Assembly (NCBI RefSeq): GCF_002005445.1
Contig: NZ_CP014692.1
Location: 310,001 to 374,000 of the forward strand
Length of the DNA stretch: 64,000 bases
Direction: 5' to 3'
From: Acetobacter aceti
Lineage (GTDB): Bacteria; Pseudomonadota; Alphaproteobacteria; Acetobacterales; Acetobacteraceae
Shown here: positions 285 to 34,920 of the stretch, one piece after another
Layout: each line of letters starts with the position of its first letter
How positions within the stretch are numbered: position 1 is the stretch's first letter
Notes under the pieces: generated by a model
The model's input: only the letters and a program-made list of their open reading frames with translations
Told to the model about the DNA's origin: nothing
Database searches by the model: none
Translations under genes and position numbers: made by a program

Positions 285-1171
285 ATCAGGGAAAGATTGA
301 GGCGCTTCAGGGTATTACGCCGCTGCTGGATCGCTACGATGGCTTTATCGTCGATCTCTGGGGGACCGTGCATAACGGGGTTCGGCCGTTCCCGGGCGTG
401 ATCGACTGCCTTCGCGCTCTGAAGGAGCAGGGCAAGCGCATTGTTCTGCTGTCCAACGCGCCGCGTCCGGCCGCCATTATCCGTGGCCAGCTGTCGACAA
501 TGGGTGTGGATGACACGGTGTATGACGGGATCATCACCAGTGGGGAGGTGACCTGGCGGGTTCTCGCCGGGTGCACCGATCCATCGGTGGCGCGTGCATG
601 GCCCTGGGTGGAAACTCTTGGCAAGCGTGTGTTCCATGTTGGCGGCCAGCATGACCTGTCGATGTTCGATGGGCTGGGTGTGGAGCTTGTCTCCAATCCC
701 GCGGATGCGACGTTCGTGCTGAACACAGGGCCAGACGAGCGCCGGGGACAGACGGAACTGGAGCCATATCTGGAAATTCTCTCGGCCTGCGCCGTGCGTG
801 ACCTGCCGATGATCTGCGCCAATCCGGATATGGAGGTGATGCGCGATGGCGTTCGCCTGATCTGCGCGGGACTGCTGGCGAAGGCGTATGAGCAGAAAGG
901 TGGCGTTGTCCACTGGATCGGCAAACCCTTTTCGCCTGTTTACGAACCGGTGTTCGAATTGCTTGGTGACATACCGAAAAACCGGGTTCTGGCGGTAGGT
1001 GATGCGTTGGCCACCGATATTCGGGGCGCCGCGAGTGTTGGTGTCGATGCGCTGTGGGTGCTGGCGGGCATTCATGGTGAAGGGCTGGCCGATGATCCGG
1101 CTTTGGCGCAGGCGGAGGCAGATGCGGCCGGGCTGGCTCCCGTAGCGAGCGTGCCTGCATTTGTTCTGTAG
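281..1171 (+). CDS. HAD-superfamily class IIA (NagD-like) hydrolase
   Basis: The 296-residue product starts with GTG overlapping the pyrD stop. Residues 21-33 (GFIVDLWGTVHNG) form HAD motif I, with Asp25 as likely nucleophile. The second Asp of the usual DxDGT is Trp here, as I recall for the TIGR01459 branch of class IIA phosphatases. Motif II is LLSNAPRP, and the C-terminal GKPFSPVYE and VLAVGDALATDIRGA supply the catalytic Lys and the Mg-binding Asp residues. It is probably a cytosolic phosphatase of unknown substrate. The tight linkage to pyrD suggests co-expression but does not show a pyrimidine role. A terminator about 120 bases downstream closes the unit. Confidence 0.85.
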   Translation: MNQGKIEALQGITPLLDRYDGFIVDLWGTVHNGVRPFPGVIDCLRALKEQGKRIVLLSNAPRPAAIIRGQLSTMGVDDTVYDGIITSGEVTWRVLAGCTDPSVARAWPWVETLGKRVFHVGGQHDLSMFDGLGVELVSNPADATFVLNTGPDERRGQTELEPYLEILSACAVRDLPMICANPDMEVMRDGVRLICAGLLAKAYEQKGGVVHWIGKPFSPVYEPVFELLGDIPKNRVLAVGDALATDIRGAASVGVDALWVLAGIHGEGLADDPALAQAEADAAGLAPVASVPAFVL

Positions 1172-1289
1172 AATTCCGGAGTAATCGTTCTCTGGTCTCA
1201 AATTTTTTTTCGCGGAAATTCAAAAGCGTCTCTTCAGGATCAACGTTTTTGTAGTGCCTGCCTGATTTTCCGACATGATCTCTTGCAGA

Positions 1290-1320
1290 GGCGCGGCAGC
1301 TTTTATGCCGTGCCTTTTTT
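1290..1320 (+). terminator. Rho-independent terminator after the HAD gene
   Basis: GGCGCGGCA at 1290-1298 pairs with TGCCGTGCC at 1306-1314 (nine pairs, one G-U). The loop is seven bases, and six T follow. It ends the pyrD/HAD transcript and separates it from the iron-uptake island. Confidence 0.85.
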
Positions 1321-1402
1321 ATGAACAGGACACTACGCGTCAGAAGGAGCGGGGGCGTTCCGAAGCAGTGGAAAAGATGCCTTCAGGGTGGCGGAAATGA
1401 AT

Positions 1403-1422
1403 AAAATTGCGAATGAATATTA
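1403..1422 (+). promoter_or_regulatory. Possible Fur box upstream of the piuC-type gene
   Basis: Bases 1408-1422 read TGCGAATGAATATTA, which matches 10 of 14 defined positions of the 7-1-7 Fur pattern TGATAATnATTATCA. Against the full 19-mer consensus only 11 of 19 positions match. It sits 55 bases before the hydroxylase start and shares the TGCGAAT half-site with the better Fur box at 2429. Iron control of this gene is an inference. The rest of the gap from 1172 to 1476 holds only the terminator at 1290 and no gene. Confidence 0.4.
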
Positions 1423-1476
1423 TTTTCATGTATAGCAGAGGTCGAATGCCATCTCTTTATCGTAAGGATCGTTCTG

Positions 1477-2160
1477 GTGCTGGTGCATATTCCCAAGGTT
1501 CTGACCCAGGAAGAACTTGTTCATTGTCGCAAGTCTCTTGAGCAGTCGGAATGGGTTGACGGCAAGGTGACGGCGGGTGAGCAATCGGCAAAAGCAAAAT
1601 ATAATCTGCAGATCCCACAGGATTCCGAAGTGGCCCTTGAGTTGGGGGACATCATTCTCAGGGCGCTGGGCCGGAGTGCGCTCTTTACGACTGCCGCCTT
1701 GCCGTTGCGTGTCTTTCCACCGCTGTTCAATCGTTATGATGAAGGCATGCGGTTTCACGCGCATGTGGATAATGCCATTCGCCCTTTGCCTGAAACAGGT
1801 TTTCGGATCCGGACGGATGTTTCCTCCACCCTGTTTCTCAGTGATCCGGAGGAGTATGAGGGCGGTGAGCTGGTGATCGAAGACACATACGGCAGCCATA
1901 AGGTAAAATTTCCAGCTGGCGACATGGTTCTGTATCCGGCTACCAGCTTGCATTCTGTGGCTCCCATCACGCACGGAAGCCGTTGGGCCTCATTTTTCTG
2001 GACGCAGTCTATGGTGAAAGATGATGGAAAAAGAACGCTTCTTTATAATTTTGATCAATCCATCATTGCGGTGCGGAGCGATCTCTCAGACGATCATCCT
2101 GCTGTTCTTGGACTGACCGCGACCTATCATAATCTCGTCCGGGAATGGGCGGAACTATGA
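1477..2160 (+). CDS. piuC: PKHD-type Fe(II)/2-oxoglutarate hydroxylase (PiuC/YbiX family)
   Basis: The 227-residue product has the family length. It begins MLVHIPKVLTQEE and has the iron ligands of the double-stranded beta-helix: HVD with His96 and Asp98, and His159 in SLHSVAPI. Arg169 is the likely 2-oxoglutarate ligand. GTG at 1477 is chosen because AAGGA lies eight bases upstream; a second GTG at 1483 is spaced less well. In enterobacteria and pseudomonads this family sits beside Fiu/PiuA-type catecholate siderophore receptors, as it does here with the receptor 370 bases downstream. Its true substrate is not established; an action on siderophore or iron-limitation metabolites is usually proposed. 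Probably iron-regulated (see the Fur-like site at 1403). Confidence 0.9.
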   Translation: MLVHIPKVLTQEELVHCRKSLEQSEWVDGKVTAGEQSAKAKYNLQIPQDSEVALELGDIILRALGRSALFTTAALPLRVFPPLFNRYDEGMRFHAHVDNAIRPLPETGFRIRTDVSSTLFLSDPEEYEGGELVIEDTYGSHKVKFPAGDMVLYPATSLHSVAPITHGSRWASFFWTQSMVKDDGKRTLLYNFDQSIIAVRSDLSDDHPAVLGLTATYHNLVREWAEL

Positions 2161-2428
2161 TGAGGTGAAAGCGGTTTGCTTGCTCTGGTATCAAAAGATT
2201 TCAGGATATGTAACGAGCGCCTTACTGCTCTTTGGAGAGGTTGGAATGTGAGGCATTTTTGTCACAAAGGGCAAATAGATCATGGCATGTTCTGTTACGC
2301 TGAACCTTTAGAGGTTTTATTAAATATAATTAAAAACAGAGTCTTATAGAGTGTAGAATAATTAGGATGCCTTGTGGACATTCTTTGCAATAGAGAGACC
2401 GTGTTCCGACATGAAAAAGATTGTTTTA

Positions 2429-2447
2429 GATATTGCGAATCATTATC
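2429..2447 (+). promoter_or_regulatory. Fur box upstream of the siderophore receptor
   Basis: GATATTGCGAATCATTATC matches the classical 19-base Fur consensus (GATAATGATAATCATTATC) at 16 of 19 positions. It lies 83 bases before the receptor start. The surrounding gap (2161-2530) is AT-rich and otherwise shows no gene. Fur with Fe2+ would repress the receptor-Sel1-exbB-exbD-tonB unit; repression is inferred from the site and from gene content. Confidence 0.75.
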
Positions 2448-2530
2448 GATTGCAGATAACTGAACTCGCAATATCAGGTAACATTTACTGAAGACGCGAG
2501 CCGGTTGCGGCCAGCGTCAGGAGCACGGAA

Positions 2531-4816
2531 ATGAATCAGTCTGCGCGGGTGGCCGGGCGCACACCCAAGGTCGGTCTGGCTGTTGCGGTCGGTATGTCCG
2601 CCGGGTTTGGTGTGGGAGAAGCAGAGGCGCAGACCGCCCGGACGACAGAAACCACAGAGGCCGAACCCTCCATTGTCCTGCCGACCCTCAAGATCAAAGG
2701 TCAGCAGGACGAAGGCGTGGCGGCAGGCAACACGAACAGTTCTTCGCTGGGGATTGCCCGTCTGCCGACTTCTGTCCGTGACACGCCGCAGACCATCAAT
2801 GTTGTTCCTCATGAGATCATCAAGGAACAGCGTGCTTTTACACTTGATCAGGCTCTTGCCAATGTGCCCGGTATTACGCTCTCCACAGGAGAAGGTAATG
2901 GCGGAATGAATGGTGACCAGTTCCGTATCCGTGGCCTTCAGGCCAGACAGGATATGTATACGGACGGTCTGCGTGATTTTGGCACCTATACCCGCGATAT
3001 TTTCAATACTGAAGATGTTCAGGTCATCAAGGGACCATCGGGGGAATATTTTGGCGCGGGCAATGTTGGAGGCGTCATCAATCAGTCTCTGAAACATGCG
3101 CATACGGGAACTGATTATAACTACGACCAGACTTTCGGAAGCGCATCGATGTATCGTGGCGCCGGTGATGTCAATTATCAGATTACCGACGATATCGCAC
3201 TACGAATCAACGGAATGTACAATCGACAAGGCGTGGTGGACCGGAAAAACACAACGTCCAATCGTTATGGAACAGCCGTCGATCTTGGCGTGGGTCTGCG
3301 CAGCAAGACGTCGTGGCATCTGAACTGGCAATGGTTCAACTCCGATAGCACGCCGGATTATGGTGTTCCCTTCGTTGAGACATCGGCAGGGTTCTATCGT
3401 CCGATTACAAGCCATGGTCTCGCACGGGACACAAGCTATGCAAGAAGTTTTGACCGTGACAAGAATGATGTTCACGTACTGACGTCGCTCATCAAATCTG
3501 AAATCACACGCTGGTTTACATTTACAAACGATACGCGTCTTACAAAATATCAGCGCGAATATGCAGCGACAACTCCAGGAAATTGTACAATCGCCAGTGG
3601 GTGCGCTACATCGTTTTTCGCCGGACGGGACACAATACTTCCTTATGGTGCCGGCGGCGGCGTCGGATATCGTCAGGACGGCTGGGCCGCACAGGACGTC
3701 ATGATGGGAACGGCCCACGTGAAAACAGGGATTGTTTCTCAGGAAATCAAGGCGGGTGTTGATATAGAATATGCGTATGACAACCGTCATTATGGTTCAT
3801 GGGCAAATCGCCTGAACAATCAAAGTCTGTTTAATCCGCAGTATAATTATCCCAATACAAGTCTCTCCTTTCCTGCATCCGGACAGAGGGTTTCGACCTC
3901 GCGTGATCTTGGACTTTTCTTCTCAGACCGGATCAGGGTAGGCAAATACGTCACCCTGTTCGGCACGGGACGGTGGGATTCGTTCGTCACGACATTCAAT
4001 TCGGCCTCGATGGATACAGGGACCCAAAGTCAGAGAGCTGACCGCTGGAGCCCTTCCGGTAGTATCATTGTAACGCCACTTGAAACACTCTCGTTCTACT
4101 TTACGTTTTCCCGATCTTACAAGCCGATCGGTACTGATGTTGCTGGCACTGTCACCAATAATGTGAACTCGAACGATGTTGCGAGTGACAGTAAGGATTT
4201 CAAACCACAAAAAAGCGATCTCTTCGAGTTTGGCACAAAAGCCGACTTCTTCAACAAGCGACTGGGCACAACCCTGTCCTTCTTCCGGATCAATGAAACA
4301 AACAGTTATTATACCGATATGAACGGTGACATAGTGACTGGCATGGCTGACATGGGAAGCGGTCGCCGTATCCAGGGTGTCGAACTGACATTGACCGGAA
4401 AAGTTACCAAAAACTGGTATGTCTACGGTTCTTATTCCTACATGGATGGAAAGGTGACACACAGCGTTGCGGATCATGGCAAGGACGCACCGATGGTGTC
4501 TCACAACAATTTTGCGGTGTGGACATCCTATGACCTGTCCGATGCATTGCTGAATCAGGGCTGGGGGCATCTTAAAGTTGCTGGCGGCGCCCAGTACGCC
4601 TCTGCTTACTGGGCAGGGCCGACTACAACCCAGAATTATCGTGTGCCCTACATGTTTAATCTGAATGGAATGGTTTCCTGGGAGATGAAACATTACCGGG
4701 TGTCTTTCAACGCCAACAACATCACAAACCGCCTGAATTATGGCTCAGCTTTTTCGGGAAGAGCGGTGCCGGCGGCTGGCAGGACTTTTATCGGCAATGT
4801 CGGTCTCACATTCTGA
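2531..4816 (+). CDS. TonB-dependent siderophore receptor (Fiu/PiuA-like)
   Basis: A 761-residue outer-membrane receptor. A signal peptide ends near residue 34 (GEAEAQT), followed by a probable TonB box around residues 50-57 (LPTLKIKG). The plug domain includes TSVRDTPQTINVVPHEII, DQFRIRGLQARQDMYTDGLR and VQVIKGPSGEYFGAGNVGG, the pattern of catecholate-type siderophore receptors. The rest is a 22-strand barrel ending in VGLTF with the C-terminal Phe expected for barrel assembly. It binds a ferric siderophore and imports it using energy from the TonB complex encoded downstream. The PiuC-type and Sel1 neighbours point to the PiuA/Fiu group, but the ligand cannot be read from the sequence. Fur control is likely from the box at 2429. 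Confidence 0.93.
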   Translation: MNQSARVAGRTPKVGLAVAVGMSAGFGVGEAEAQTARTTETTEAEPSIVLPTLKIKGQQDEGVAAGNTNSSSLGIARLPTSVRDTPQTINVVPHEIIKEQRAFTLDQALANVPGITLSTGEGNGGMNGDQFRIRGLQARQDMYTDGLRDFGTYTRDIFNTEDVQVIKGPSGEYFGAGNVGGVINQSLKHAHTGTDYNYDQTFGSASMYRGAGDVNYQITDDIALRINGMYNRQGVVDRKNTTSNRYGTAVDLGVGLRSKTSWHLNWQWFNSDSTPDYGVPFVETSAGFYRPITSHGLARDTSYARSFDRDKNDVHVLTSLIKSEITRWFTFTNDTRLTKYQREYAATTPGNCTIASGCATSFFAGRDTILPYGAGGGVGYRQDGWAAQDVMMGTAHVKTGIVSQEIKAGVDIEYAYDNRHYGSWANRLNNQSLFNPQYNYPNTSLSFPASGQRVSTSRDLGLFFSDRIRVGKYVTLFGTGRWDSFVTTFNSASMDTGTQSQRADRWSPSGSIIVTPLETLSFYFTFSRSYKPIGTDVAGTVTNNVNSNDVASDSKDFKPQKSDLFEFGTKADFFNKRLGTTLSFFRINETNSYYTDMNGDIVTGMADMGSGRRIQGVELTLTGKVTKNWYVYGSYSYMDGKVTHSVADHGKDAPMVSHNNFAVWTSYDLSDALLNQGWGHLKVAGGAQYASAYWAGPTTTQNYRVPYMFNLNGMVSWEMKHYRVSFNANNITNRLNYGSAFSGRAVPAAGRTFIGNVGLTF

Positions 4817-17468: not shown

Positions 17469-19550
17469 TCAATAATAAGTATATGTTCTTTCATTGTGGG
17501 TTGTCATGCTGCCGAGCATCGCACTTGAGACAACAGAAGCAAAAATGGCCTGCCCGGCTTCAAGCAGCTGACTGCCATCCGTTGTCGTATACCAGTCCCG
17601 GTTGGATTCCAGCAGAACGGCAAGATCGGTTCCAGGATCTACAACAATCAGCTTGTCATCATCAGGGTTTGAAAGTCTGTAGTTGGTGATGGCATTTGTA
17701 AAAAGCTGAGGCCATGTCGCGCTGTACGTTGTGGCATAACGGAGGCCAAATGGCATGATGGCAAATAACCACGCATCAGGGGCCGCCGCTCTGTGGGCAA
17801 GGAGACTCTGCGTCATCGCGGCCTGAGCATCAGACTGATTGGCGTAAGCCAGAGCGTCACGTGAGAGGAGGTTGAAGGCGATCCAGCTCGGAGGCGTCCC
17901 AATCTCACCATAGGAGCTGAGAAGGCCGTCGCTATCCAGGGCGGAAATGCCGGAGTCAATGAGGTTCCATCGACTTTTTGTATCGTTGTAAGCTCCTCCC
18001 AAACCGTTACTTGATCCTGTCACGGAATAAAATGCGGGAACATCGTTCGTGCTGTCACCGGGAGTGAGATAGCCCGAGCCGACGCAGGCAGAGATACTGA
18101 TCCGATACCCGGCGGCTTCCATGCCCCGGAGCAAAAAATAAGCATAGGACGACAGCACATTATCATTGCCAGCATCGGCTGATGTGCCTTCTGTCGTATC
18201 ATCGCCCACCAGTTTGCCCCATGGTTTGACTGAGACGATGTGGGCAGCCGAAGAAGCCGGATCGATTGTCATGCCACTGACGGTGAGGCAGTTGCTTCCC
18301 TTGTTCCAGCGGTCTGTGTCTGGCGTCCGCGTCAGAAAGACTTCCAGTTTGTTAACCTGGCCGGGCAGGATACCTGAAAGTGTAAGGTCGGTTTTTGCTG
18401 CAATGTCCCTGGTAACAACGCTGTTAAGAAAATACGTTATATATGCGCCAGTATTTTCAGGTCCGAGATGTATGGTGGCGGTGGGGCTTGCCGAGGCCAG
18501 CCAGGAGACCTGAAACCACGCTCCCGGATTCCATGTGCTCCGCCAGAGGGAGCCCCCCCGGCCTTCATCACCGGTCCAGTTACCGGGAGAGAAGAGAAAC
18601 GCCGAAGAGTCGACCGTGAGAGTATAGGCAGCACTGAACGCCATGGCCGTGACGGTGAATGCTGGTGGATTGCTCAGGGCGCCTGTGTTGGTAACGGTAA
18701 AATTGCCCGTTCCTGCAACGGAAGGAGTGAAGGTGAAGGTTAAAGGCGCTGTCGATCCCGCCGGGATGGTGATGGTCTGTGGAAAAAATGTTCCTGTCAG
18801 AGTGCAGAGAGGAACAACTGTAATCGCTTTTGTGTTAGCCGTGCCGCTTCCCGGCGTAATGGTGTAGGTGGTGGCTGTGCCGACTGTCAGGGCACGTGAT
18901 CCTGTCAGTGAGTATTGTGTAAAAGGCGTTTCTGTAGAAGAAACTGTTATAAACAGGCCTCCCGGGTCAGTCAGGGTTCCGCCGCTGCTTGTGCTGAGTG
19001 TTCCGATACCGCTTGCTGTCGGGGTGAAAGTAAAGGTGATGGCGCTGGTGGACCCCGCAGGGAAAGTAAGGGTCGTTGGTGAAAAGGTGCCTGCCACTGT
19101 ACTGAGTGGAGTGATTGAGATGTCCTGGGATCTGCTCGATCCGGTACCGGGCATGATGGTGTAAGTGGAAGCAACACCGGCTGTCAGGCTGGTGGTCCCT
19201 GTCAACGTATAGGTGGTGAATGAATTCGAGACAGCAATGGAGAAGACGGAAAGAGCGCTCGGATCGGTGAGGCTCGCAGAGTTTGTCGTGCTCAGCGTGC
19301 CCGAACCAGCCTCTGCGGGCGTGAAGGTAAAGGTCACGGTGCTAGTGGAACCGACAGCCAGAACAACAGACGCGGGTGTAAATGTACCCGTGAGTGTGCA
19401 CGCAGGTGTGACAGTCAACGGCGCCGCAAGTGTTGTGCCGGCTGTAGGTGTTACACTGAAGAGGGCCTTGGAACCCACGGACAGAGATGCTGGTCCTGTC
19501 AATGTATAGGCAGGAGTGATCAGTGGCGTTTCCGTGGATATGTCGCTCAT
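17469..19550 (-). CDS. Ig-like-repeat protein with degenerate SGNH hydrolase domain
   Basis: A 693-residue protein with no signal peptide. Residues 15-308 hold three Ig-like repeats of about 98 residues, each opening with Y(T/S)LTG and containing TGTFxPxxxxxxxGSTxxxTFTFTP. Residues 313-430 match a beta-sandwich domain found also in the paralogue at 31607 (AFLFSPGNW). Residues 440-680 align with that paralogue's SGNH/GDSL hydrolase domain, but the nucleophile Ser is Asp451 (GDDTTEG instead of GDSITEG) and the catalytic His is replaced (DGSQLLEAGQ for DDVHPLAPGH). The block II Gly and block III Asn remain. It is therefore probably non-catalytic and may bind polysaccharide or protein. The C-terminus is TYTYY. 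It is predicted surface or secreted by repeat content only. Confidence 0.8.
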   Translation of the reverse strand: MSDISTETPLITPAYTLTGPASLSVGSKALFSVTPTAGTTLAAPLTVTPACTLTGTFTPASVVLAVGSTSTVTFTFTPAEAGSGTLSTTNSASLTDPSALSVFSIAVSNSFTTYTLTGTTSLTAGVASTYTIMPGTGSSRSQDISITPLSTVAGTFSPTTLTFPAGSTSAITFTFTPTASGIGTLSTSSGGTLTDPGGLFITVSSTETPFTQYSLTGSRALTVGTATTYTITPGSGTANTKAITVVPLCTLTGTFFPQTITIPAGSTAPLTFTFTPSVAGTGNFTVTNTGALSNPPAFTVTAMAFSAAYTLTVDSSAFLFSPGNWTGDEGRGGSLWRSTWNPGAWFQVSWLASASPTATIHLGPENTGAYITYFLNSVVTRDIAAKTDLTLSGILPGQVNKLEVFLTRTPDTDRWNKGSNCLTVSGMTIDPASSAAHIVSVKPWGKLVGDDTTEGTSADAGNDNVLSSYAYFLLRGMEAAGYRISISACVGSGYLTPGDSTNDVPAFYSVTGSSNGLGGAYNDTKSRWNLIDSGISALDSDGLLSSYGEIGTPPSWIAFNLLSRDALAYANQSDAQAAMTQSLLAHRAAAPDAWLFAIMPFGLRYATTYSATWPQLFTNAITNYRLSNPDDDKLIVVDPGTDLAVLLESNRDWYTTTDGSQLLEAGQAIFASVVSSAMLGSMTTHNERTYTYY

Positions 19551-19984: not shown

Positions 19985-21097
19985 TCAGAATCCGTAAGCA
20001 ATCCCGGAATGAAGGGTTACGCCATTTGTCCAGCTGCTGGGTTCCAAAGCATAGAAACCATTACGCTGATCAACGGGCTGGCTACGGCCAAATGAATAGT
20101 ATGTATATTGCGCACCACCGATGAGATGCAGCGAACGGGCAATACGATAGTCGAAATCAAGAGCCGCCGTCCATTCGGGGCGCGGTCGCAGGTGGAAAGT
20201 TCCCATTGTGCCAGCCGCGTCCATGCGTGAGGCCAGTCGTTCCGTCCAGGCAAGCCTGCCGCGAAGAACAAGAGCATCGGTGATTGCATAATCAAGACGC
20301 ACCTGAATGCCGGCGAGGAACCCGCCATAAGCCTCGGAGCTTTTCGGAACACCACCGGCCGATTGGATATCCCTGTTCCAGGACCAGTATCCTCCGACGA
20401 TCGTCGGGGTGATCATGAAGCGGTTATCGACCATGAAGCCCTTTCCGACTTCGATGCGGCTGTCGGTCGTCATGCGATGCGAGGTGCTGTTAAGGGGCCA
20501 GACGTCTCCCCACCCATTGGAGGCAGATCCCTTGTATGAGACATCCCCGTCCCCAAGGGCGAAATGTGCGGCGACAAAGACATGATCGATTTCGTACATG
20601 TTGAACATGTCGGCCACATCAAGCTGGAAACCCGGAACCCAGCCGGTTTCCCGGTCATACCCGGTGCTTGCGCCCTGCCACGGGAGTTTTTCCTTGTAGT
20701 TGCTCCATGCGCCCGTCACGGAGAGACCGACTTCCCGGTTGACCTGTACGACAGCGGGAATACGTGAAGAGGCCTCATACGACGAACGGCCAAAATGGGC
20801 AGGCTGGGGATCATCGGGCAACGCGTGACGGCGTGGATGCTGCAAGCCTTCTTCCTGCTCGAAGCGTCGTGTTGGCATGCGGTACTGGCTGAGTGGCGAC
20901 GTGTCTACTGTTCCTGCATCGCCAGGGTCCATGTCCATGGTCATCAGCATGCGGGCGAGCGTCTGGTGGCGTTGCTCGGAGTCGCGCCGTGTGTCCAGAT
21001 AGGAGGCGCTGTGTTCAGGGGCGAACTGGGCGTGAGCCTCTCGGGCAAAAGACAGAGCCACTGTTGAGAGGCCCAGACACAGGAGAATCTTGCGCAA
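19985..21097 (-). CDS. Predicted outer-membrane beta-barrel protein, unknown function
   Basis: A 370-residue protein with a clear signal peptide (residues 1-23, cut at EAHA|QFAP). A polar segment follows to about residue 115. The C-terminal part then has alternating amphipathic strands rich in Trp, Tyr and Gly (SVTGAWSNYKEKL, WVPGFQLDVADMF, ALDFDYRIARSLHLIGGAQY) and ends in the aromatic AYGF expected for outer-membrane barrels. I do not recognise a named family. About 12 strands can be counted by eye. It stands between the repeat protein and folC and is probably transcribed alone. Confidence 0.65.
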   Translation of the reverse strand: MRKILLCLGLSTVALSFAREAHAQFAPEHSASYLDTRRDSEQRHQTLARMLMTMDMDPGDAGTVDTSPLSQYRMPTRRFEQEEGLQHPRRHALPDDPQPAHFGRSSYEASSRIPAVVQVNREVGLSVTGAWSNYKEKLPWQGASTGYDRETGWVPGFQLDVADMFNMYEIDHVFVAAHFALGDGDVSYKGSASNGWGDVWPLNSTSHRMTTDSRIEVGKGFMVDNRFMITPTIVGGYWSWNRDIQSAGGVPKSSEAYGGFLAGIQVRLDYAITDALVLRGRLAWTERLASRMDAAGTMGTFHLRPRPEWTAALDFDYRIARSLHLIGGAQYTYYSFGRSQPVDQRNGFYALEPSSWTNGVTLHSGIAYGF

Positions 21098-31606: not shown

Positions 31607-34048
31607 ATGGTCACATGGACACAGCTTGCTGACACGCAGATTACGGGCGCCGTAAGCGCGGTTGCAGCAGGACAGACTCTTCTGGATGGATGGATTGATC
31701 TTGTTGGAGGGGTCTGGTCGACCAAGACTCTCTGGTCTGACACGACGACTCAGGATTACCTGTCATCAGTCCAGGAAAGCACACCCTGGTCTGGTGGACC
31801 ATTATACCGGGCGCAGTCAGAAGATGCGAAATCCGGTCGGATCACGGCACAGATCCGTATTGATTTCAATCAGACAATCTATTTTATGCTGCGCGCCAAC
31901 AGGGCGACGACGTCCTCTGCATTCAATGGTTATCTTCTTGGTATCGATCAGGTTTCTTCCAAGTTTTATCTTCATGGTTTTGCGGTTGTGGCAGGTGCTG
32001 TCAATACAGCCCAGCAGTTTGTTTATCAGCCTCTCACGACGCAGCCAGCGAATGGTGATCTGATTACGGTTGACATTCAGCTTACGCAGGATACGGCGAC
32101 GACGTCGTCCATGGCGATTGTGGTGACCAATACTGCGGGTGCAACTCTTGGCAGCATAACAATTACTGATAATGCAATCGTAAATGCCGCGGCACTTCAG
32201 AATGTTGCCGGATCTTTCGGTGTCTGCGCTTATTCTGCAAAAAACAGCAATACTGCCGGCATCAAGGAAATTGCAGTTTATAGCGGTGATGCCGCAGCGC
32301 CTTCTGCTACGGCCTACACCCTGACCGGGCCCGCTTCCCTGACGGTCAATACTGCCGGAACATACACGGTCACGCCGAATGCGGCCCCTGCATCTGCAGT
32401 GATCGTTACACCGGCCTGCACACTTTCTGGTACATTTTCTCCTGCAACAACTACGCTTCCTGCAGGAAGTTCCAGTGCGGTCACGTTCGCTTTTACTCCA
32501 TCCGCGTCCGGTTCAGGCTCGTTGTCAACGACTAACAACGGTAGCCTCGCCAATCCTGCGGCATTATCATTAAGTGTCAGTTCGCAGATTACCGCGCCTT
32601 CGGCTCCCGCTTTTACTCTCGTGGCTAGCTCCGGACAGGTCACTGTCACGGTTTCGGCGCCAGCCTCCACGGGTGGTGCTGCGATCACCGGTTATCCGAT
32701 TTTTGTCGGCACCAGCGCGGGAGGCGAAGGCAGTTCGCCCGTTACCACGCTTTCAGCTCCCGGTTCCTATAATATTACCGGTCTGACAAACGGTACTCCG
32801 GTGTATGTCACGGTTGGTGCGGTCAATTCAGTTGGCACAACGCAAGCGGCGGAGCAGACCGTGACGCCTGTGGCGCCGGCCTCAGGAGGGTCAATCGCAG
32901 TCGACTCACCGGCCTTTCTCTTTTCTCCCGGTAACTGGTGCGGAGATAACGGGCGCGTTGGATCTTCGTTGCGTCGGACATGGAACGTGGGTGCATACTT
33001 TGTTTTTACATGGACCGCTTCCGCCAGCCCGAGCGCAACCCTTCATCTTGGTCCCAGCGGGACAGGAGGTTACGTCACTCTGTACCTCAATGGCGTGGGT
33101 ACAACGGTTGCAGCGACAGGGGATATCACGCTTTCCGGTATCACACCGTCCGCTGGAAATGTCCTTTTCGTCATTCTGAGCAGCACTCCGCAGAAAGCGA
33201 GATGGAATCAGGGAGGGAACAATATCGTTGTTTCCGGCATGACTCTTGATGGCGGCTCCAGCGCCGGTGTTTCCACCGCAGGCACAAAAGGCTGGATCAA
33301 GATCATTGGTGACAGCATTACTGAAGGTATTGAAGCAAACAGTAATAAGGATAGTATCGTTTACGGTTATGCTTTTCAGGTTCTGCAGGGCTTGAGAGAG
33401 CAGGGATATGAGGTCTGTATCTCGGCCTGTGGGTATTCCGGTTATCTTGTTGCAGGCGACAGCACAGGAGATGTGCCTGCCTATTATTACGTCTCCGGTT
33501 CCAGTTCCGGCAGCGGTGGTACATATGATGACAGCAAAAGTCGCTGGAACAAGATAGATGCTGGTGTTTCTGCGCTTGACAGCAATAATCATCTTTCTTC
33601 GTATGGAGCGGTGACAACTGAACCTGTGGCCGTTGCCGTCAATTATCTGACCAACGAAGCCTTGAACAGTGTCAGTAAATCAGACGCGCAGGCGGCCATG
33701 ACCCAGGCGATGATTGCTCATCGTGCAGCTGCGCCGGATGCATGGCTTTTCCAGATTATTCCATTTGGATTCTATTACTCCACTAAATATGACTCGTCAT
33801 GGCTGACAGTTTTCAATAATGCTGTGAGTGCTTACAAGGCAGCCTATCCATCAGACACCAAAGTAACGACGATCGATATTGGTTCCAGTCTGTCGAACAC
33901 GATTCAGAAAAATATGGGATGGTATATTTCTGCCAGTGATGATGTGCATCCTCTGGCTCCTGGGCATGCTCTTGTCGCGCCGATTGTCCAGGCTTCCATA
34001 ATGACTTCTCTGGAAAACAAGAAAAATCAGTCTTATACTTTTTTCTGA
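31607..34048 (+). CDS. Multidomain SGNH hydrolase with lectin-like, Ig-like and FN3 domains
   Basis: An 813-residue protein; ATG at 31607 has AAGGAAA nine bases upstream. Residues 1-228 look like a concanavalin/LamG-type beta-sandwich. Residues 237-327 are one Ig-like repeat (YTLTGPASLTV...SGTFSPA) of the type present three times in the paralogue at 17469. Residues 332-422 form a fibronectin III domain (ITGYPIFVGTSAGG, YNITGLTNGTPVYVTVGAVN). Residues 430-550 are the AFLFSPGNW beta-sandwich. Residues 560-800 are an SGNH/GDSL hydrolase with Ser570 (IIGDSITEG), block II Gly, Asn679, and Asp778/His781 (DDVHP). The domain pattern suggests an esterase acting on acylated polysaccharide. No signal peptide is visible and the end is SYTFF. 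Substrate and export route are unknown. Confidence 0.83.
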   Translation: MVTWTQLADTQITGAVSAVAAGQTLLDGWIDLVGGVWSTKTLWSDTTTQDYLSSVQESTPWSGGPLYRAQSEDAKSGRITAQIRIDFNQTIYFMLRANRATTSSAFNGYLLGIDQVSSKFYLHGFAVVAGAVNTAQQFVYQPLTTQPANGDLITVDIQLTQDTATTSSMAIVVTNTAGATLGSITITDNAIVNAAALQNVAGSFGVCAYSAKNSNTAGIKEIAVYSGDAAAPSATAYTLTGPASLTVNTAGTYTVTPNAAPASAVIVTPACTLSGTFSPATTTLPAGSSSAVTFAFTPSASGSGSLSTTNNGSLANPAALSLSVSSQITAPSAPAFTLVASSGQVTVTVSAPASTGGAAITGYPIFVGTSAGGEGSSPVTTLSAPGSYNITGLTNGTPVYVTVGAVNSVGTTQAAEQTVTPVAPASGGSIAVDSPAFLFSPGNWCGDNGRVGSSLRRTWNVGAYFVFTWTASASPSATLHLGPSGTGGYVTLYLNGVGTTVAATGDITLSGITPSAGNVLFVILSSTPQKARWNQGGNNIVVSGMTLDGGSSAGVSTAGTKGWIKIIGDSITEGIEANSNKDSIVYGYAFQVLQGLREQGYEVCISACGYSGYLVAGDSTGDVPAYYYVSGSSSGSGGTYDDSKSRWNKIDAGVSALDSNNHLSSYGAVTTEPVAVAVNYLTNEALNSVSKSDAQAAMTQAMIAHRAAAPDAWLFQIIPFGFYYSTKYDSSWLTVFNNAVSAYKAAYPSDTKVTTIDIGSSLSNTIQKNMGWYISASDDVHPLAPGHALVAPIVQASIMTSLENKKNQSYTFF

Positions 34049-34167: not shown

Positions 34168-34920
34168 ATGGATCATCTCCCTGTTTCTTTCCTTGTCCTG
34201 CTGATTTTTCTGGCTCCCGTTTCCGCGTATGCAGAGTGTTCCGGCCATTTCGCCGGACAAGGCAGGCCAGCCTCCTCTCAGGAACTGGTCCTGCTCTGTT
34301 CGCTCTCTTTCGCGACGGGTTATTCACCGCAGGCAAAAGAAGCATCATGGAGCGCGGAACATCTGACGGCAGAAGCCATCAGTCAGGCGCAGACTCTTGA
34401 GGGCAGGGCTGTTTTTCAGGAAGATCTCCGGCTTCCGCTGGAAGACCGATCGGAACTGGTGGATTATCAACGCTCAGGGTGGTCCCGCGGTCATCTCACA
34501 CCGTCAGGCGATATTTCCACGAAAGACGCACGAGCAGAAACATTTCTGTTGTCCAACATTGTTCCTCAGGCCGCCCGTCTGAATTCTGGCGCATGGAACC
34601 ACCTCGAAGCCAATGTCAGAAAAATTGTGAAAAAGTCTCGGGAAGCCTATGTCGTGACCGGACCGGCCTTCCGAGAAGCTTTGGGAACGATTGGGTCTGA
34701 CCACGTTCGTATTCCCTCATCGCTCTGGAAAGCCATATATCTGCCATCATCAAAGACCGTTTCAGTCATCGTCTGTAAAAATACGGCGCCATACCGATGC
34801 AATGCCGTCAGCCAGGTTTCTCTCAAGCGGGTAACTGGAATTGATCCGTTTCCTGGAGTTCCGCTGTCCGAGAAAAACCGGAGTGCTGCTATTGATCAGG
34901 CGCTTCTGCCCCGATCATGA
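34168..34920 (+). CDS. Secreted DNA/RNA non-specific endonuclease
   Basis: A 250-residue protein with a signal peptide (residues 1-22, VSAYA|EC). The NUC1 beta-beta-alpha-metal core has WSRGHLTPSGD with His109 as general base, and SNIVPQAARLNSGAWNHLE with Asn130 as metal ligand, then Gln134, Asn139 and Glu147. The first residue of the usual DRGH motif is Ser106 here, not Asp. It should cut nucleic acids in the periplasm or medium, for nutrient scavenging or defence. It follows the SGNH gene behind a strong terminator, so it is a separate unit. The ribosome site at 34168 is weak, so the start is less certain than the family. Confidence 0.82.
   Translation: MDHLPVSFLVLLIFLAPVSAYAECSGHFAGQGRPASSQELVLLCSLSFATGYSPQAKEASWSAEHLTAEAISQAQTLEGRAVFQEDLRLPLEDRSELVDYQRSGWSRGHLTPSGDISTKDARAETFLLSNIVPQAARLNSGAWNHLEANVRKIVKKSREAYVVTGPAFREALGTIGSDHVRIPSSLWKAIYLPSSKTVSVIVCKNTAPYRCNAVSQVSLKRVTGIDPFPGVPLSEKNRSAAIDQALLPRS

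Follow-up and report, generated by a model that had tools for sequence, protein, structure and literature searches.

A conserved SGNH protein of Acetobacter aceti with a lost catalytic set and relatives near phage virion genes

The stretch of DNA analysed here, referred to as the window, comprises 64,000 nucleotides of the Acetobacter aceti genome (contig NZ_CP014692.1, positions 310,001 to 374,000 of the forward strand), a genome that consists of a single contig of 3.73 Mb and whose named relatives in the searches belong to Acetobacter. The window carries two related genes of the SGNH type, named by their first position in it: the 17469 gene, whose product has lost its catalytic residues and which we call dead, and the 31607 gene, which retains them and which we call live. 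The first-pass annotation of the window had described the 693-codon 17469 frame as intact and the two proteins as sharing an immunoglobulin-like (Ig) repeat, a beta-sandwich with the motif AFLFSPGNW and the SGNH domain. This description holds: both frames are open and the two proteins align across these parts with 43% identity. The 17469 protein, used as query against the genome, returned two matches only, the 17469 and 31607 genes. The live protein is composed of an L-type-lectin-like domain, one Ig repeat, one FN3 domain, a CE2 jelly roll and an SGNH domain that is recognised by Pfam, and its start at 31607 agrees with the orthologues, as the frames of two other genomes (G295 and G397) open exactly at MVTWTQ/MTTWTQ. 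In the Ig region of the dead protein, Pfam places fn3_5 above the cut-off and ASH slightly below it; its SGNH domain went unrecognised by Pfam at E-values up to 1, and neither NCBIfam nor PHROGs gave a useful match for either protein. The positions of all features are collected in Table 1.

Table 1 Features of the dead and live SGNH genes and their neighbours (positions are those of the window; aa, amino acids)
Feature	Position	Strand	Basis or remark
Coding sequence, dead SGNH protein, 693 aa	17469..19550	-	Jelly roll and SGNH domain behind three Ig repeats; C-terminal tail short, with RTYTYY at its end
Three Ig-like repeats (about residues 12-305)	18636..19517	-	Pfam and model; borders taken from alignment and model
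CE2-type N-terminal jelly roll (about residues 312-440)	18231..18617	-	Predicted model aligned to CE2 structures
SGNH domain without catalytic residues (about residues 441-683)	17502..18230	-	Alignment and model
Codon 451, GAT, Asp; nucleophile position (Ser570 of paralogue)	18198..18200	-	Alignment and codon (read 18200-18198)
Codon 490, Val; block II oxyanion Gly position (Gly609)	18081..18083	-	Alignment
Codon 564, Arg; block III oxyanion Asn position (Asn683)	17859..17861	-	Alignment
Codon 661, CAG, Gln; catalytic His position (His781)	17568..17570	-	Alignment
Upstream neighbour of the dead gene, outer membrane protein-like (OMP-like)	19985..21097	-	Apparent signal peptide by eye; no Pfam match
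Coding sequence, live paralogue, 813 aa	31607..34048	+	SGNH intact: Ser570, Gly609, Asn683, Asp778, His781
Non-specific DNA/RNA endonuclease (PF01223)	34168..34920	+	Directly downstream of the live paralogue

The catalytic positions were compared in a table of 41 rows, which also underlies the tree: ten dead rows, a relative from a viral contig (L077, likewise dead) and 30 rows counted as live. The dead rows are eight genome copies plus P0005 and P0006, whilst P0001-P0004 and P0007-P0010 are covered by genome copies that are identical to them or nearly so; outside the table stand P0047 (no anchor motif), P0018 (cut C-terminally) and remote SGNH proteins such as P0028, P0030, P0040, P0046 and P0055. 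The nucleophile position is Ser in all 30 live rows and Asp in nine of the ten dead ones, with Gly in P0006; the block V His, likewise present in every live row, is replaced by Gln (eight rows) or Arg (two rows). The block III position is Asn in all 30 live rows; in the dead group it is Arg (five), Gln (two), Gly (one) and, in G387 and G398, Asn. At block II the dead rows carry Ala (six), Thr (three) or Val (one) where 24 of the 30 live rows have Gly, a residue that is also missing from six live rows. The Asp of the DxxH motif is retained in nine dead rows. Among the 24 columns that are at least 95% conserved in the live rows, Ser570, Ile571 and His781 are altered in all ten dead rows and Asn683 in eight, whereas Gly496 is retained in eight and the remaining 19 columns are unchanged in all ten.

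The window codons bear out the replacements originally pointed out, namely Asp at the nucleophile position (GAT against AGC in the paralogue) and Gln for His (CAG against CAT), and the counts above show these replacements to be mostly, although not strictly, conserved among orthologues. Of the residues that the first-pass annotation had listed as kept by the live protein (Ser570, Asn679, Asp778 and His781), all stand except Asn679, which we rejected as the catalytic Asn: block III is Asn683, where LTNE aligns with GTND of P0017. The Gly and Asn blocks of the dead protein had also been called conserved; since Gly609 corresponds to Val490 and Asn683 to Arg564, they are not conserved at the residues that matter functionally. 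Judged by its sequence, the window protein has lost the catalytic set in full, as it has none of the Ser, block II Gly, block III Asn and block V His of an active CE2 or SGNH enzyme. An enzyme with a changed mechanism, in which Asp451 would be the nucleophile or the base in a reaction with a non-ester substrate, would suit the recurrence of this Asp and of the DxxH Asp, but we consider it very improbable given the Gly of P0006, the mixture of Arg, Gln, Asn and Gly at the Asn position and the alternation of Gln and Arg at the His position. Fourteen further loci of the genus were checked for a second dead lineage and none was found, because all nine additional domain frames (including two repeats), classed by block I alone, keep GDS.

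When the catalytic blocks were excluded from the tree, the ten dead rows grouped in a single clade (support 100/99), the sister branch consists of ten live rows, mostly from Acetobacter (94/94), and the two branches group together (100/98). The genus search, covering 49 genomes, found an orthologue of the dead gene in eight, with an open frame in all eight and always with an aminotransferase gene on one side and, on the other, the OMP-like gene next to folC. In six other related genomes the OMP-like gene lies beside folC, and neither the stretches fetched beyond it nor the genus search showed a dead gene; the stretch of G400 reaches a contig end about 150 bases past the OMP-like gene. A wider sample of 397 genomes of the family gave matches in seven genomes from outside the genus, all of them short and within the Ig part only.

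The ratio of nonsynonymous to synonymous substitution rates (dN/dS), calculated for six pairs of four species, was 0.044-0.108 in the dead SGNH part, 0.068-0.116 in the neighbouring folC and 0.110-0.139 in the Ig repeats of the dead gene. The SGNH part was below the Ig repeats in all six pairs, although dN itself was not lower in one of them. Over the sandwich and SGNH region of five close species, the ratio was 0.033-0.097 for the dead gene and 0.050-0.099 for the live gene; deeper pairs, with dS near or past saturation, were excluded. The dead SGNH domain is under strong purifying selection, of the same order as folC, and the pattern seen in the live-conserved columns together with the dN/dS results exceeds chance. 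Simple decay, with the gene heading towards loss, could explain the missing catalytic residues taken alone, but frameshifted orthologues, the expected mark of decay, are absent from the eight genome copies and dN/dS lies far below 1 in every unsaturated pair; these results refute decay for the species compared, and we give it next to no credence. The proposal that the gene had been recruited rather than left to decay is strongly supported by the eight open copies, the single clade and the purifying selection. With catalytic residues lost in a conserved, selected and open gene, the 17469 protein has, on sequence grounds, the marks of a pseudoenzyme.

The predicted model of the dead protein aligns to CE2 structures over approximately residues 317-685, and as modelled it has the CE2 arrangement of an N-terminal jelly roll followed by SGNH. 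The Pfam family CE2_N matched neither the 17469 nor the 31607 protein at E-values up to 1, and it matched a distant relative (P0028) with an E-value of 1.1e-7. A sequence profile searched against the PDB gave only a weak match to CtCE2 (E-value 0.055), and a single-sequence search gave only FN3 proteins above noise. CtCE2 of Clostridium thermocellum (PDB 2wao, 2wab), as described in PMC2661963, is an active esterase that keeps the Ser, His, Asn and Gly, all four of which the window protein has lost; the two proteins are 14% identical, and an Ig stalk is present here where CtCE2 has a cellulase and a dockerin. CtCE2 is described as having a site that is both catalytic and binding.

We lean towards the view that the 17469 protein is a selected pseudoesterase of CE2 fold on a stalk of three Ig repeats, derived from an esterase of phage-fibre type and now probably acting as a non-catalytic glycan binder. 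The ancestor would have been an active SGNH esterase of phage-fibre type, whose nucleophile and base would have been lost before the present species split, as would the oxyanion Asn in most species; the dead protein would then hold polysaccharide with its jelly roll and its former substrate cleft. The selection on a domain with the predicted CE2 fold suggests a binder that holds a cell-surface or matrix polysaccharide without catalysis. Glycan-binding pseudoesterases are a named class in PMC7828330, with the C-terminal domain of PgaB as the example: like the role proposed for the window protein, this domain is esterase-related and is called inactive and glycan-binding, but it is CE4-related and fused to an active domain, whereas the window protein has a predicted CE2 fold and a gene of its own. 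The example is itself contested, as the title of PMC5933820 reports glycoside hydrolase activity of PgaB orthologues.

Several observations weigh against this view. In CtCE2 the H791A substitution lowers affinity about 20-fold (PMC2661963), and the window protein has no counterpart of this His; the Trp-790 platform of CtCE2 has none either, as the residue before the His position is Ser, His, Gln or Lys. Within the dead clade, the residues of the former active site are more variable than other positions that are fixed in the live sister rows, and four random positions were equally variable in 1.6% of 20000 draws (G398, G423 and the live G423 near-copies were dropped from this test and from the comparison of invariant aromatics); the old pocket may therefore not be the binding site. 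A Sec signal peptide was seen neither in the dead nor in the live protein when these were inspected by eye. In six of the eight genomes the dead-gene frame opens 1 to 12 codons before the start, so that no signal peptide is hidden upstream there; in G387 and G398 the distance is 54 codons. The promoter-like match upstream of the dead gene is a consensus match, with three found against 1.4 expected in the region.

The variation of the former pocket also fits a structural role, in which the dead SGNH domain would be a folded spacer or multimerisation domain and binding would reside in the Ig repeats or the tail. Two new aromatic residues, Trp556 and Phe559, which lie just before block III, are invariant in the dead clade and occur in no live row, may represent core repacking and would suit this role as well. 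We nevertheless regard it as unlikely, since an SGNH dN/dS below that of the Ig repeats in every pair (with the reservation about dN given above) is unusual for a mere spacer. The glycan-binding pseudoesterase that we favour would give a clear natural example of an esterase fold that is retained for non-catalytic use under constraint resembling that of housekeeping genes, alongside a live sister encoded in the same genome, and the pair allows a test of whether a dual site of the CtCE2 type can evolve into binding alone. The first-pass annotation had stated that no such pair was described. This is too strong for the kind of protein, as plant GDSL pseudoenzymes are known that, according to PMC4757993, have lost catalytic blocks and are retained as in the window gene, albeit in plants and in another context, as are the pseudoesterases of PMC7828330. 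Among the open-access papers listed, from a collection that leaves most subscription journals outside, none dealt with a dead CE2 protein or with a dead SGNH lineage in bacteria, and the passages shown of PMC9487903 name no dead bacterial SGNH lineage.

The phage side of this account comes from a scan of viral contigs, which found four relatives, all within a few kb of virion genes. That of L077 lies two genes before a head closure gene, that of L078 about 4 kb ahead of genes for head closure and tail completion, that of L079 about 2.4 kb after a major head gene and that of L080 about 1.4 kb after a tail fibre J gene. In the L077 protein (1012-3117), Ser is replaced by Glu and His by Ser, the DxxH Asp is lost and the protein branches separately from the dead clade; this catalytic loss is independent of that in Acetobacter. 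In a library of viral structures, a tail fibre of Clavibacter phage CN1A and SGNH-esterase-domain proteins of Shigella phage Sf12 and Bacillus phage Mater matched over about 400 columns with root-mean-square deviations of 5.6-6.3. These proteins share the fold, but the window gene lies among housekeeping genes with no virion genes beside it; it is not encoded in a virion-gene module, whereas its sequence relatives are found near virion genes. A search of 50,697 named phage records and of plasmids, with the live paralogue as sole query, gave no match at E-values up to 1e-5. We read the family as SGNH esterases that resemble phage fibres and that persist as stand-alone copies in the chromosome of Acetobacter, with transfer that may have gone in either direction, and the dead gene ties a bacterial pseudoenzyme to phage receptor-binding proteins. 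A 1385-aa Acetobacter protein (P0041) has two GDSL domain matches.

The head spike and tail fibre of RcGTA (PMC10218006) and its tailspike TspA (PMC13420450) are alphaproteobacterial, phage-derived and bind or degrade polysaccharide; the likeness of RcGTA to the window protein would be a functional parallel only, and SGNH and esterase terms gave no hit in PMC10218006. A cell-encoded particle that uses the fibres was considered and rejected: a search of the A. aceti genome for the HK97 capsid family PF05065 found no member, and a baseplate gene occurs in 13 of 49 genomes and only two of the eight dead-gene holders. The dead protein could conceivably be a domesticated phage-type fibre that occupies acetylated surface polysaccharide without stripping it, for instance to shield the receptor from phages with the live version, a speculation to which we attach little probability; were it true, the dead copy of L077 would be the same trick played by a phage, pure binding. 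Elsewhere in the A. aceti genome, the baseplate and tail genes of L096 (C1:790000-803000) are accompanied by a gene for a 1125-aa protein, probably a tail fibre, whose match is to the Ig/FN3 part of the live paralogue. In L147-L148 (C1:3022000-3058000), a probable prophage remnant, one frame encodes a major head protein (phrog_1357) and others look by eye like terminase, portal and tail genes; the head gene and the one that follows resemble their counterparts in L079, but lack the SGNH gene that lies between those two.

The 17469 and 31607 genes are 12.06 kb apart. A live gene of the sister clade occurs in six of the 49 genomes, each of which has the dead gene too, and the two are 12-14 kb apart in five of the eight dead-gene genomes; in G397 they are on different contigs. 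In G387 and G398 the genus search found the dead gene and no live copy of the sister clade; their other SGNH matches share 39-45% identity with the live protein, and the copies on C9 and C104 fall in another subfamily in the tree. The pairing is loose. The dead protein had been proposed as a binding or regulatory partner of the live esterase, in a complex with it or on a common polysaccharide, and the co-occurrence in six of six genomes would fit this, as would the aromatic C-terminal tail common to both proteins, although other SGNH proteins of the genus also have it. Co-occurrence is weak evidence, however, because the eight genomes are close relatives, and the genes are on opposite strands and separated by housekeeping genes. 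Together with the absence of a sister-clade copy in G387 and G398, this leaves recruitment as a partner unsupported and, in our estimation, rather improbable; an obligate pair is further weakened by the contig split of G397. A long SGNH protein of G387 and G398 (L092 6637-10332, L094; a 1231-aa frame in G387) belongs to another subfamily and has the same aromatic tail, and in G375 a second live copy of the SGNH gene, with about 61% identity, lies close to a transposase-like frame (L095 4790-7519).

The tails of the pair end in RTYTYY and QSYTFF, and such tails recur in SGNH proteins of the genus: those of L031, L032, L033, L029 and L038, live as judged by Ser, end in SFFYY or VYSFF. The aromatic tail is a family trait, since other live SGNH proteins of the genus carry it. 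A genome-wide class of C-terminal export signals was rejected, as the tail pattern is not enriched in the A. aceti genome (ten matches against 18 for a reversed-pattern control); two of the ten are the C-termini of the pair, and at L138, the only one examined of the other eight, no listed frame of at least 60 aa ends at the motif. Downstream of the live paralogue, the PF01223 endonuclease gene adjoins the sister-clade live gene in all six genomes that hold the latter, and in G397 the two remain adjacent though both sit elsewhere; a live SGNH protein and a DNA/RNA endonuclease would make a possible matrix-degrading pair.
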